Source: Burkholderiales bacterium (GTDB lineage: Bacteria; Pseudomonadota; Gammaproteobacteria; Burkholderiales; Burkholderiaceae_C). Taken from it: a DNA stretch of 60,584 nucleotides. Within the stretch, counting starts at the first letter, position 1, and every line of letters starts with the position of its first letter. The translations under genes and the position numbers were made by a program. The notes under the pieces are model-generated. The model saw nothing but the letters and a program-made list of their open reading frames with translations. It was not told the DNA's origin and did no database searches. Positions 5,120 through 13,656 of this stretch are shown piece by piece. The stretch spans positions 1 through 60,584 of the forward strand of contig JAIXKR010000037.1 of assembly GCA_026932235.1 (NCBI GenBank), read 5' to 3'.

Positions 5120-6661
5120 TCAACCCTGTGCGGCGACGCGGTCGGTCTGGGCGTGCAGTTTCGAGAGTGCCGCCAGGTAGGCCTTCACCGAGGCGATGAT
5201 GATGTCCGGGTCGGCGCCGACGCCGTTGACGATGCGCCCGCTGTGCTGCAGGCGCACCGTCACCTCGCCCTGCGACTCGGTGCTGCCCGAGGTGATGGCG
5301 TTGACGGAATAGAGCACCAGTTCGGCACCGCTTTGGACCTTCGACTCGATTGCCTTCAGGCAGGCATCGACAGGACCGTTGCCCTCGGACTCGGCGCGGA
5401 ACTCGGTCGCGCCGGCGGCGAACACGACCTCGGCATGCGGACGCTCGCCGGTTTCCGAGCGCTGGCTCATCGCCACCAGGCGGTAGTGCTCGACCTCGCT
5501 CGTCACGCTCTCGTCGCCGACCAGGGCGATGATGTCCTCGTCGAAGATCTCGCTCTTGCGGTCGGCGAGATCCTTGAAGCGCGCGAAGGCGGCGTTGACC
5601 TCGGCCTCGGATTCGAGCTCGATACCCAGTTCCTGCAGGCGTTGCTTGAAGGCGTTGCGCCCCGAGAGCTTGCCGAGCACGATCTTGTTGGCGCTCCAGC
5701 CCACGTCCTCGGCGCGCATGATCTCATAAGTGTCGCGCGCCTTGAGCACGCCGTCCTGGTGGATGCCGCTGGCGTGCGCGAAGGCGTTGGCACCGACCAC
5801 GGCCTTGTTCGGCTGCACGACGAAGCCGGTGGTCTGGCTCACCATGCGCGAGGCCGGCACGATCTGCGTCGTGTCGATGCCGACCTCCAGGCCGAAGTGG
5901 TCGCGCCGCGTCTTCACCGCCATCACGACTTCCTCGAGCGAGCAGTTGCCCGCGCGCTCGCCCAGGCCGTTGATCGTGCACTCGACCTGGCGCGCACCGC
6001 CGATCTTCACGCCCGCCAGCGAGTTGGCCACGGCCATGCCGAGGTCGTTGTGGCAGTGCACCGACCATACGGCCTTGTCCGAGTTGGGGACGCGCGCGCG
6101 CAGGTCGCGGAGAAAGGCGCCGTAGAGCTCTGGAATGGCGTAGCCCACGGTGTCGGGGATGTTGATCGTCGTCGCGCCCTCGGCGATCGCGGCCTCGACC
6201 ACGCGGCAAAGGAAGTCCGGCTCCGAGCGGTAGCCGTCCTCCGCCGAGAACTCCACGTCGGCACAGAGCTTGCGTGCAAAGCGCACCGCCAGCCGCGCCT
6301 GCTCGAGCACCTGCTCGGGCGTCATGCGCAGCTTCTTCTCCATGTGCAGCGGCGAGGTGGCGATGAAGGTGTGGATGCGCGCACGCGCCGCACCCTGCAG
6401 CGCCTCGGCGGCGCGGCCGATGTCGCGGTCGTTGGCGCGCGCCAGCGAACACACGGTGGACTCCTTGACGACGTCGGCGATCGCCTTCACCGCCAGGAAG
6501 TCGCCGTTGGAGGAGGCGGCGAAGCCGGCCTCGATGACGTCCACGCGCAGCCGCTCGAGCTGGCGCGCGATGCGCAGCTTCTCCTCGCGCGTCATCGAGG
6601 CGCCGGGCGACTGTTCGCCGTCCCGCAAGGTGGTGTCGAAGATGATGAGCTTGTCGGTCAT
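5120..6661 (-). CDS. leuA: 2-isopropylmalate synthase
   Basis: Condenses acetyl-CoA with 2-oxoisovalerate in the first committed step of leucine synthesis. The 513-aa protein begins [20 protein letters not shown] with the DTTLRDGEQ catalytic motif and has the metal-binding HxH motif in [13 protein letters not shown] and the phrase [11 protein letters not shown]-terminal LeuA regulatory domain (about residues 390-505, containing [14 protein letters not shown]) provides leucine feedback. The ATG at 6661 matches the conserved N-terminus; the open frame extends upstream only into the attenuator. Expression is probably controlled by the leader peptide and terminator at 6705-6884. It lies downstream of pssA on the same strand. 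Confidence 0.97.
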
Positions 6662-6704
6662 GGTCTTGCCTTGGCGAGGGGGTTTCGCAAGCAGCTCCGC
6701 GGGA

Positions 6705-6744
6705 AGAAACGACAACGGCCCGCTGCGTTGCGCTGGCGGGCCGT
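6705..6744 (-). terminator. leuA attenuator: terminator hairpin between leader peptide and leuA
   Basis: On the minus strand a perfect 9-bp stem ACGGCCCGC / GCGGGCCGT (plus 6715-6723 and 6736-6744) encloses a 12-nt loop and is followed by the U-rich stretch TGTCGTTTCTTCCC. It starts about 20 nt after the leader peptide stop codon and ends about 45 nt before the leuA ATG. That position is what a transcription attenuator needs: a ribosome stalled on Leu codons would change folding upstream. I could not identify a unique antiterminator pairing by eye. The U tract is interrupted, so termination may be partial. Confidence 0.7.
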
Positions 6745-6764
6745 CGATCGGAATCGGGAAACGG

Positions 6765-6884
6765 TCAGGAAGGAGTTTCGATCGGCATACCCGCAAACGG
6801 CCATAGCGCCAGCAGCGCTAGCAGCGCTAGCAGCGCTAGCGGCCGAAGCAGCGCGGGGGAAAGCCGAGGGCGCGGATGCGACAT
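6765..6884 (-). CDS. leuA leader peptide (39 aa, 11 leucines)
   Basis: A short frame on the minus strand, ATG at 6884 to TGA at 6765-6767. It reads [19 protein letters not shown], then [14 protein letters not shown], then PIETPS (39 aa). Eleven residues are Leu (5 CTG, 4 CTA, 2 CTT), nine of them within residues 12-27. CTA is rare in this GC-rich DNA, so ribosomes should be sensitive to charged tRNA-Leu(UAG). It sits immediately upstream of a rho-independent hairpin and then leuA, the classic arrangement of leader-peptide attenuation. No strong Shine-Dalgarno precedes the ATG. It is too short to be caught by length-limited gene finding. Confidence 0.82.
6804..6839 (-). repeat. Four 9-nt units encoding Leu-Ala-Leu inside the leuA leader
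   Basis: On the minus strand three perfect CTAGCGCTG units (6813-6839) are followed by one variant CTGGCGCTA (6804-6812). Each unit adds Leu-Ala-Leu to the leader peptide without shifting its frame. The unit contains the palindrome AGCGCT, so neighbouring copies can also pair. Tandem arrays of this kind can change copy number by replication slippage, which would alter the number of regulatory Leu codons. Confidence 0.85.
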
Positions 6885-6896
6885 GGGCGGAATGTA

Positions 6897-6920
6897 GCAC
6901 GCCGCCGCGGTGCGGCGTGC
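6897..6920 (-). terminator. Perfect hairpin just after pssA
   Basis: GCACGCCGC and GCGGCGTGC (9 bp, 6-nt loop CGCGGT on the plus strand) form a perfect inverted repeat that begins 2 nt past the pssA stop codon. No U-run follows on the minus strand, so it may slow or protect the pssA mRNA end rather than terminate strongly. It lies 13 nt upstream of the leader peptide ATG, so the leuA leader could be reached by read-through from pssA or from a promoter not visible to me. Confidence 0.5.
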
Positions 6921-6921
6921 G

Positions 6922-7752
6922 CTACGGATGCAGGCCTTTTTCGTCGGGTTCGTCGATCGAGGTCGCGATCACGCTCGCCGGCTTGCCCTTGAACCTGCGC
7001 CAGGCGTAGACCACGTAGCCCGAAAGCCCGTAGGCGCAGAAGATGCCGAAGAGGGCGCGCGGCGTGTCCAGCGCGATGAGCGCGATCGCCAGCACGATGC
7101 CCACCAGCACCGCGAAGGGTACGGTGCGCCGCCCGCCGACGACCTTGAAGCTGTAGAAGGGCGCGTTGGTGACCATCGACAGGCCGGCGTAGAGCGTGAT
7201 GCCGAAGGCCAGCCAGGCCAGCCAGGGCGTGGTCAGCGCGACGTTGCGAAAACCCGCGTCGTCCATCACCCACACGAGGCCGACTACCATGGCCGCCGCT
7301 GCGGGGCTGGGCATGCCCTGGAAGAAGCGCTTGTCGACGACGCCGATGTTGACGTTGAAGCGCGCCAGGCGCAACGCCGCCCCGGCGATGTAGACGAAGG
7401 CCGCGATCCAGCCCGCCTTGCCCATGCCCTTGAGCGCCCAGATGTAGACGATCAGCGCCGGTGCGGCGCCGAAGGCGACCATGTCCGAGAGGCTGTCCAT
7501 CTGTTCGCCGAAGGCGCTCTGCGAATTCGTCATGCGCGCGACGCGGCCGTCCAGGCTGTCGAGCACGGCAGCGACGAAGATCGCGATGCACGCGGCCTCG
7601 AAGCGCCCGTTCATCGCCATGACGATGCCGTAGAAGGCCGAGAAGAGCGCACCCAGCGTGATCGCATTGGGCAGGACATAGATTCCCTTGCGCCGCGGGC
7701 GCGGCGAGGCTTCCGACGGTTCGTCGGCAGGTGCCCGGGACTGCTCGTTCAT
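6922..7752 (-). CDS. pssA: CDP-diacylglycerol-serine O-phosphatidyltransferase
   Basis: Integral membrane enzyme that makes phosphatidylserine, the precursor of phosphatidylethanolamine. The CDP-alcohol phosphatidyltransferase signature DGx2ARx8Gx3Dx3D is present as DGRVARMTNSQSAFGEQMDS plus LSD (about residues 66-87). About seven hydrophobic segments follow the N-terminal basic tail. The 276-aa frame starts at MNEQSRAPAD; the upstream open frame is low-complexity and overlaps the divergent gene's leader. In many Burkholderiales pssA sits between ilvC (with psd) and leuA; here psd is absent and two other genes intervene. Confidence 0.95.
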   Translation of the reverse strand: MNEQSRAPADEPSEASPRPRRKGIYVLPNAITLGALFSAFYGIVMAMNGRFEAACIAIFVAAVLDSLDGRVARMTNSQSAFGEQMDSLSDMVAFGAAPALIVYIWALKGMGKAGWIAAFVYIAGAALRLARFNVNIGVVDKRFFQGMPSPAAAAMVVGLVWVMDDAGFRNVALTTPWLAWLAFGITLYAGLSMVTNAPFYSFKVVGGRRTVPFAVLVGIVLAIALIALDTPRALFGIFCAYGLSGYVVYAWRRFKGKPASVIATSIDEPDEKGLHP

Positions 7753-7934
7753 GGCGGCGAAGGATAGCGCAGGGGCTTCGCCGGAAAGCCGCGCCGGTCC
7801 ACCCGGCGACACGGCGCAAGCGCGGCGTGACGGCGCGCCCGCCGAACGGGGATCCGCGATGGCGCCATCGATCGCGGCTACCATGCCGAGGCCCCCTTTC
7901 CCGGGCGGCCCGGCCTCGCCGCGTTCGCACCGAC

Positions 7935-7967
7935 CCGGGCAAACGATCCGGGCAAACGATCCGGGCA
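7935..7967. repeat. 13-bp tandem direct repeat in the pssA / dehydratase divergent region
   Basis: CCGGGCAAACGAT occurs twice head to tail (7935-7947 and 7948-7960), followed by a partial third copy CCGGGCA (7961-7967). It lies 39-71 bp upstream of the dehydratase GTG start and about 180 bp upstream of pssA. Tandem repeats in a divergent promoter region can be regulator sites or simple slippage products; nothing further can be said from sequence alone. The rest of 7753-8005 shows no gene. Confidence 0.6.
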
Positions 7968-8005
7968 CCGGCGCGTCGGCCCCGATCCCCTCCGATGGAG
8001 TCCCC

Positions 8006-8971
8006 GTGAACGAACTGCCTCGTCTCGAGCGCCTCGAAGCCGCCGCGCGCATCGTCTACGACCTCATGCCGGCAACCCCGCAGTACCGCTGGCCCCTGCT
8101 GTGCCAGGCGCTGCAGGCCGAGGTCTGGGTCAAGCACGAGAACCACACGCCCACCGGCGCCTTCAAGCTGCGCGGCGGACTGGTGTACTTCGGCGATCTC
8201 GCCCGCGGCGCGCAGCCGCCGGCGGGCGTGGTCAGCGCCACGCGCGGCAACCACGGCCAGTCGATCGCCCTCGCCGCCGCGCGCCACGGAATGCGTGCCG
8301 TCGTCGTCGTGCCGCACGGCAACAGCGTGGAGAAGAACGCCGCGATGCGAGCCTGGGGCGCGACGCTGGTCGAGCACGGCGAGGACTTCCAGGCCGCGCG
8401 CGAACACGCCGCCGCGCTGGCGCAAGCGCAGGGCCTCACCGTCGTGCCGTCGTTCCACCCGCTGCTGGTGCAGGGCGTGGCGACCTACGCGCTCGAGCTG
8501 CTGCGCGCGCTCGCGGCGCTGGACGTGGTCTACGTTCCCATCGGCATGGGCTCGGGAATCTGCGGCCTGATCGCGGCGCGCGAGGCGCTGGGGCTGCGCA
8601 CGCAGATCGTCGGCGTCGTCTCCGCGCATGCGCCGGCCTACGCGCTGTCGTTCAGGCAGCGCGCCCTCGTCACGCATCCGACGACGACCCGGCTCGGCGA
8701 CGGCATGGCCTGCAGCACGCCCGATCCGCAGGCGCTGGAATGGATCTGGCGCCACGCCGAGCGCGTGGTCGAAGTCGGCGACGACGAGCTGGCTGCCGCG
8801 ATGCGGCTGCTGTTCCGCGCCACACACAACGTCGCCGAAGGAGCCGGCGCCGCCGCACTGGCCGCCGCGCTGCAGGAGCGCGGGCGCCTGCAGGGGCGCC
8901 GGGTGGCCGTCGTGCTCAGCGGCGGCAACGTCGACAGCGACGTGTTCGCGGGCGTGCTCGCAGCGCCCTGA
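8006..8971 (+). CDS. PLP-dependent threonine/serine dehydratase-like protein
   Basis: Fold-type II PLP enzyme of the threonine dehydratase / serine racemase / hydroxyaspartate dehydratase group. The Schiff-base lysine is in HENHTPTGAFKLRGG, the substrate loop in SATRGNHGQSIALAA, and the glycine-rich phosphate cup near SGGNVDS. Its 321 aa and lack of a C-terminal ACT domain argue against the biosynthetic IlvA and for a catabolic or racemase-like enzyme. The GTG at 8006 was chosen because GATGGAG lies 6-12 nt upstream and the protein conservation begins there (NELPRLERLEAAARIVYD). It stands alone on the plus strand between pssA and the phosphodiesterase gene. Exact substrate is uncertain. Confidence 0.82.
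   Translation: MNELPRLERLEAAARIVYDLMPATPQYRWPLLCQALQAEVWVKHENHTPTGAFKLRGGLVYFGDLARGAQPPAGVVSATRGNHGQSIALAAARHGMRAVVVVPHGNSVEKNAAMRAWGATLVEHGEDFQAAREHAAALAQAQGLTVVPSFHPLLVQGVATYALELLRALAALDVVYVPIGMGSGICGLIAAREALGLRTQIVGVVSAHAPAYALSFRQRALVTHPTTTRLGDGMACSTPDPQALEWIWRHAERVVEVGDDELAAAMRLLFRATHNVAEGAGAAALAAALQERGRLQGRRVAVVLSGGNVDSDVFAGVLAAP

Positions 8972-10124: not shown

Positions 10125-13656
<3,532 letters not shown>

Follow-up and report, generated by a model that had tools for sequence, protein, structure and literature searches.

A putative leucine-responsive transcription attenuator with a probably leaderless leader mRNA upstream of leuA in Burkholderiales

The leuA upstream region and its leader frame

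The window, i.e., the whole stretch of 60,584 nucleotides that was analysed, encodes on its minus strand the 2-isopropylmalate synthase gene leuA, and the short region separating it from the upstream gene pssA holds the element described here (Table 1). For this region the sequence-only reading had reported a 39-codon frame with 11 Leu codons, ending about 20 nt before a G/C-rich stem with a U-rich tail beyond which leuA begins, and both the counts and this order of features were found to be right. The stem, given as 9 bp, comprises 9 to 11 bp upon recounting, depending on which end pairs are included, and the leader does overlap with longer open frames. Beyond that reading, the present analysis identified an extended -10 box, a likely leaderless start, an antiterminator, a repeat underlying the Leu run and a displaced stop codon, whereby the element begins with the promoter-like box at 6899 and not at 6884.

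Table 1. Position of leuA, its leader element and the neighbouring pssA within the window
Feature	Position	Strand	Basis
leuA, 2-isopropylmalate synthase, presumed controlled gene	5120..6661	(-)	NF002087 and TIGR00973 above cut-off
leuA ATG	6661-6659	(-)	
Weak Shine-Dalgarno-like AAGGCAAG ahead of leuA	6665..6672	(-)	by eye in the sequence
U-rich, interrupted terminator tail	6704..6716	(-)	
Terminator hairpin GACGGCCCGC..GCGGGCCGTT, segments 3:4	6714..6745	(-)	
Segment 3 (CGATCGACGGCCCGC), common to antiterminator and terminator	6736..6750	(-)	
Leader peptide frame, 39 codons, 11 Leu, probably from leaderless mRNA	6765..6884	(-)	Leu-containing leaders at the equivalent site in relatives
Segment 2 (GCGGGTATGCCGATCG), antiterminator 5' arm	6779..6794	(-)	
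Leu control-codon run on 9-nt tandem repeat, 4 copies	6804..6839	(-)	repeat finder: 6805-6840
Segment 1 (CCCCCGC), predicted partner of the 5' part of segment 2	6853..6859	(-)	prediction only
Extended -10 promoter-like box TGCTACATT, 6 nt before leader ATG	6891..6899	(-)	sequence only
pssA, upstream of leuA	6925-7752; stop at 6922		TIGR00473, 109.6 bits (cut-off 107)

The short leader frame is rich in codons for the amino acid of the pathway. Its Leu run places 9 Leu within 14 amino acids, a density that was reached by none of 1000 dinucleotide shuffles of the 259 nt preceding leuA (shuffled mean 3.68), and its Leu codons divide into four CTA, five CTG and two CTT. CTA was identified as a rare codon, accounting for 9 of the 3043 Leu codons in the leuA genes of 80 named loci and for none of the 111 Leu codons in three window genes; among leader Leu codons it amounts to 217 of 496 overall, i.e., 104 of 267 for the genus search (56 leaders, with that of the window among them) and 113 of 229 for the named loci (51 leaders).

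Between leader and structural gene lies a stem with a U-rich tail resembling an intrinsic terminator. It is the one terminator-like site returned by a generic terminator scan of positions 5500-8000, for which 1.3 sites are expected by chance, and because the scan is at chance level, the terminator call is based on conservation and not on the scan. A generic promoter scan of both strands of the same interval returned no promoter. The 241-nt leader folds better than 200 of 200 shuffles (z = -3.77). With Rfam 15 at gathering score, the whole window yielded one tRNA and no leader family and nine relatives yielded no match, while positions 6640-6960 at a relaxed threshold yielded seven chance-level hits without an amino-acid leader among them.

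Two further genes of amino-acid metabolism were noticed near leuA, namely a threonine dehydratase gene (NF004771) at 8006-8971 on the plus strand and the gene of the acetolactate synthase large subunit (TIGR00118) at 11902-13587 on the minus strand; in the 440 nt around and upstream of its start the latter lacks a leader of this kind.

Conservation of the element and of its pairings

For comparison, 150 regions before leuA were compiled, consisting of the window, 80 named loci, 29 loci of the same genus and 40 further same-genus stretches, whereby the named-locus and genus sets overlap; three of the named loci (L004-L006) are identical in sequence to loci obtained in the genus search. Elements were identified by a script which locates a terminator-like hairpin and then chooses the preceding frame that is best for Leu content and a nearby extended -10 box; the box was required, a minimum number of Leu was not. 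By this means 111 of the 150 regions were kept and, after removal of four duplicates, there remained 107 distinct elements, each having a leader frame, a stem and a box. The remaining 39 regions lack one of the parts as read by the script. In some of them, such as L016 and L133, the element is visible on inspection, others, such as L136, are truncated at the end of a contig, and in yet others a different gene immediately precedes leuA. At least four Leu within 10 residues were found in 86% of the 107 elements as compared to 10.5% of shuffles. The C-termini of the leaders read ...LLGALRVR or similar in many leaders of the genus search and ...PHGRRR or similar in many more distant relatives. The alignment with relatives that the sequence-only reading had proposed as a check has hence been carried out and came out in its favour, with leader frame and stem conserved as documented by these 107 elements, by covariance-model matches and by covariation.

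The covariance model, R1, is derived from 79 of these elements. Within the window's own genome it has one real match, the leuA element (E 2.5e-11; next 0.6), and within the genus it matches 72 of 81 genomes, including 52 of 53 of good quality (E up to 0.001). At E up to 0.01 it further matches 180 of 200 sampled genomes of the family, which represent 128 of 141 genera and include 164 of the 178 genomes of good quality, a rate which is partly given by construction, as the sequences used for training R1 come from the same family. Matches outside the family are mostly partial and weak. A sample of the order gave 26 matches in 250 genomes, six of these in the window's family, with strong scores outside the family being found in two genomes only, both of one other family; a sample of the class gave 14 in 229, three of them in the window's family and the rest weak.

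All 38 checked loci with E < 1e-8 (L152, L156-L192) adjoin leuA or a homologue of 25-31% identity. In seven genomes of the genus (G001, G020, G025, G029, G031, G033, G059) a LeuA homologue, 28-31% identical, is encoded directly upstream of leuA, and here the R1 match precedes the first of the two genes, which suggests that the leader remains attached to whichever gene comes first in the unit. A comparable arrangement was observed at L157, L161, L162 and L190-L192, where leuA has no leader and a second isopropylmalate synthase homologue lies directly upstream with the leader before that gene; the upstream protein of L161, which comes from another member of the bacterial family, is a yeast-type 2-isopropylmalate synthase (TIGR00970 above cut-off).

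For the terminator, 96.3% of the cells in 79 aligned elements are paired, and 42 cells in four pairs show two-sided changes. None of 500 shuffles reached this number of two-sided cells or the covariation score; the numbers of changed pairs and of pair types are not above those of shuffles (136 and 406 of 500, respectively), and the structure slid by three columns still gives 30 two-sided cells with 51.9% of cells paired. The antiterminator, formed by segments 2 and 3 and excluding the terminator, gave a similar picture. Over 79 rows, 90.7% of the cells in its six core pairs are paired, and two-sided change was found at a single pair, amounting to 27 cells (30 rows G-C, 27 A-U and 22 not standard). 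Again 0 of 500 shuffles reached the two-sided cells or the score, the changed pairs and types are not above shuffles (462 and 500 of 500), and sliding by one column leaves 17 two-sided cells with 52.4% paired. Counted by motif in all 107 elements, the same pair is G with C in 44, A with U in 32 and other in 31, the latter comprising 20 elements without the motif, 10 that are mismatched and one G with U, whereby A with C does not occur. Within the genus alone the antiterminator shows one two-sided change, which is in the window copy itself, and eight of ten terminator pairs are invariant. As there is almost no within-genus variation, the covariation represents a contrast between clades, and the G-C/A-U contrast of the antiterminator may go back to few old events.

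Duplex predictions for segments 2 and 3 were mixed. On average the 2:3 duplex reaches -18.3 kcal/mol versus -13.4 kcal/mol for shuffled segment 2, and an element's own duplex ranks within the best 3 of 50 shuffles in 57 of 107 elements only. Swapping partners weakened the duplex from -20.2 to -12.1 kcal/mol in one clade group and from -15.2 to -14.6 kcal/mol in the other. A competing pairing of segments 1 and 2 is predicted in 38 of 43 elements of the genus search and in 16 of 44 others. Only a short gap separates the control codons from the switching segment. Among 87 elements in which segment 2 is clear, 64 have 7 or 8 nt between the end of the last Leu codon and this segment, and in the window leader the distance is 9 nt.

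The -10 box and leaders of a second pathway

Upstream of the leader frames lies a box of the form TGnTAnnnT, whose gap to the start codon in the 107 elements is 6 nt (58), 7 nt (39), 8 nt (4) or 9 nt (6). This distribution is no free test, since frames with a box 3-12 nt away were favoured and a box was required. When frames were instead chosen by Leu content and first start codon, 42 of 112 box hits were found at offset 6 or 7, and none of the other offsets exceeded 6. As a rule, a gap of 6-7 nt behind a -10 box makes transcription begin on the start codon. In the window the box ends 6 nt before the leader ATG, close enough for transcription to start at or next to it, and from this distance the mRNA of the leuA leader is probably leaderless.

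DNA patterns combining box and ATG were searched for as well, and these searches use no Leu criterion. In the 3.86 Mb of the window's own assembly TGCTAYATTN{4,9}ATG occurs exactly twice, with no control hits, one site belonging to the leuA leader and the other to a DAHP synthase leader rich in Phe/Tyr/Trp. The latter (G000:C48:4871-4890, minus strand, MRHPSFFFAYFWILPRPAAGEA; loci L217 and L226) precedes a gene matching TIGR00034; the second DAHP synthase gene of the genome has no such leader. Across 40 genomes of the family the pattern occurs 72 times as compared to 18 for the control and is present in 34 of the 40. Thirty of these sites, one per genome, were read and comprise 11 leaders of isopropylmalate synthase genes, 10 aromatic leaders of DAHP synthase genes and nine others, whereby nine of the aromatic leaders were assigned by script and L271 was added as it lies beside a TIGR00034 match.

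Conversely, 32 DAHP synthase genes were read, i.e., the two of the window's genome and the 30 best-scoring loci, and 27 of them are preceded by a leader with at least three Phe/Tyr/Trp and the box. Leader composition hence follows the pathway, being Leu before leuA and Phe/Tyr/Trp before these DAHP synthase genes. Two weak full-length R1 matches, L193 outside and L216 inside the family, were rejected as leuA elements, being aromatic leaders before DAHP synthases.

At L264, L275, L279 and L280 the same -10 box was observed 4-9 nt before the putative starts of long frames of 164-459 codons, one of which we take to resemble coaBC and another an aminotransferase; these frames are perhaps expressed from other leaderless mRNAs.

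Proposed attenuation, the window copy and known systems

The leader frame, its Leu codons, the CTA bias, the stem, their conservation and the mutually exclusive pairings with some covariation point to a leucine-responsive, ribosome-mediated transcription attenuator of leuA, a reading to which a probability of about 0.86 is given; transcription start, leaderless translation, stalling, termination and the response to leucine are inferred from the sequence. The suggested mechanism assumes that RNA polymerase starts at or within about 2 bases of the leader ATG, as indicated by the -10 box, and that the ribosome initiates on leaderless mRNA. When charged tRNA-Leu is scarce, the ribosome would stall in the CTA/CTG run, leaving segment 2 free to pair with segment 3, and the antiterminator thus formed would keep segment 4 from forming the terminator, allowing transcription of leuA. 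With ample leucine, the ribosome would reach the leader stop codon and cover segment 2; in the window copy, segment 2 would probably be trapped by segment 1 behind a ribosome that has moved past the Leu codons. In either case, with segment 2 unavailable, the 3:4 hairpin would form and transcription would terminate before leuA.

The window copy shows several peculiarities. Of 87 elements, 81 have a leader stop codon that ends 13 or 17 nt away from where segment 2 begins, as compared to 30 nt in the window and in L084. In the window, the UGA that is typical of the genus inside segment 2 has become CGA, opposite a G in segment 3, which gives C-G where 38 of 55 distinct genus rows have U-A and 15 of 55 have U-G. 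The leuA of the window is 92.5% identical to that of L084 and 91.6% to that of L083, which has the usual stop, and as the extended frame is shared with L084, an error in a single assembly is unlikely. In addition, the 9-nt unit present four times inside the leader coding sequence is found in none of the closest relatives L083-L085, and such a repeat is a possible source of variation in the number of Leu codons. The predicted 1:2 hairpin reaches -46.4 kcal/mol as compared to a genus mean of -15.1 kcal/mol, partly because the leader is longer. As folding predictions suggest, in the lineage of the window this hairpin could partly do the work that otherwise falls to a ribosome halted at the stop codon.

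The main rival to such a takeover assumes that the family element is a working attenuator and that the window copy, with its stop codon moved, its frame shifted and its repeat expanded, is decaying, leucine control being weak or lost. The displaced stop codon and the very strong 1:2 hairpin are consistent with decay, as is the R1 score of 65.6 bits, the third lowest of the 72 matching genus genomes (others up to 129.2), and so is the interrupted U-tract, though it is likewise interrupted in many relatives. However, the -10 box, the Leu codons with their four CTA, segments 2 and 3 and the stem are all intact, the base substitution in the former stop codon has its counterpart in segment 3, and L084 has the same extended frame, so that decay is considered unlikely, at perhaps one chance in a handful.

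Two further explanations dispense with attenuation of leuA. The Leu/Ala-rich leader sequence resembles a membrane segment, and peTrpL is described as a trans-acting leader peptide (PMC7298713), which would fit a small hydrophobic protein with a function of its own, the stem merely being its terminator; yet between relatives the N-terminal part of the frame varies widely, and what is kept are the Leu codons, CTA above all, and the RNA segments, and NCBIfam returned no match for the leader frame, which renders this very improbable. That the stem terminates the upstream pssA unit only and the Leu-rich frame is a by-product of the GC-rich 9-nt repeat would be in line with the end of pssA lying directly upstream and with a Leu run that in the window copy is largely tandem repeat, but relatives free of the repeat keep a Leu leader with CTA at the same site, and the Leu density was not reached by any shuffle, so that this idea appears barely credible.

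Within the attenuator reading, a more specific proposal can be put forward tentatively, its parts being taken jointly and the whole being judged somewhat short of even odds. It holds that the family shares a leaderless amino-acid-sensing design, in which a near-identical extended -10 promoter starts transcription on the leader start codon in at least two pathways (Leu; Phe/Tyr/Trp), and that in the window the 1:2 hairpin, instead of a ribosome at the stop codon, is what frees the terminator. If true, the first ribosome would load at once and be synchronised with the polymerase; in the lineage of the window, the stop codon would have left the switching segment and the 9-nt repeat would have made the Leu run self-complementary.

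Attenuation is a textbook mechanism, best known from enteric bacteria, and the mechanism proposed here is ordinary in kind; its interest lies in the family-wide, apparently leaderless design. The element provides a testable Burkholderiales case without a match in Rfam 15, with a start-codon-proximal promoter common to two pathways, and bears on the question whether leaderless translation serves where ribosome and polymerase need to be tightly coupled. It likewise points to short proteins and 5' ends that would escape gene calling, and the repeat together with the shifted stop codon represents a natural experiment in an attenuator.

The closest counterpart is the leuL attenuator of the leuABCD operon in E. 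coli and Salmonella, which likewise combines Leu control codons with a choice between antiterminator and terminator in the same pathway. Unlike in leuL, the leader start lies 6-9 nt from the -10 box in the present elements, leaving no room for a transcribed Shine-Dalgarno sequence, and leuA of the window follows pssA; the likeness to leuL is drawn from published descriptions. With respect to the start, the leader peptides trpL of Sinorhizobium meliloti (PMC7298713) and ilvL of Corynebacterium glutamicum (PMC11857589) are likewise reported to be leaderless, their transcripts starting on the first codon of the leader or a single nucleotide away from it, and in both cases translation-dependent attenuation of amino-acid genes is described, as proposed here for the leuA leader. 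These systems concern other amino acids and other lineages, and their 5' ends are reported, whereas for the leuA leader the 5' end is predicted from the -10 box. In the ilv-leu operon of Staphylococcus aureus, a Leu-rich attenuator peptide likewise controls leucine genes (PMC5794164; also mentioned in PMC6123439); the operon is a different one, CodY acts as an additional regulator, and the likeness is by description only.

A literature search by title and start of abstract returned no report of the Burkholderiales element, and an earlier prediction is possible. The main text of a broad survey of premature terminators (PMC2965389) does not mention leuA. Putative leader peptides and terminators preceding branched-chain amino-acid genes in various Gram-negative species are referred to in PMC6123439, which cites a 2004 survey, and PMC1173090 mentions a database of putative attenuators. 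As to the control codons, the E. coli leu leader is given as 28 amino acids with 4 Leu in PMC6123439, and a modelling paper (PMC1183508) states that the use of rare codons does not hold for every attenuator and that the Salmonella leu leader holds three CUA codons whose change to CUG lowered sensitivity.
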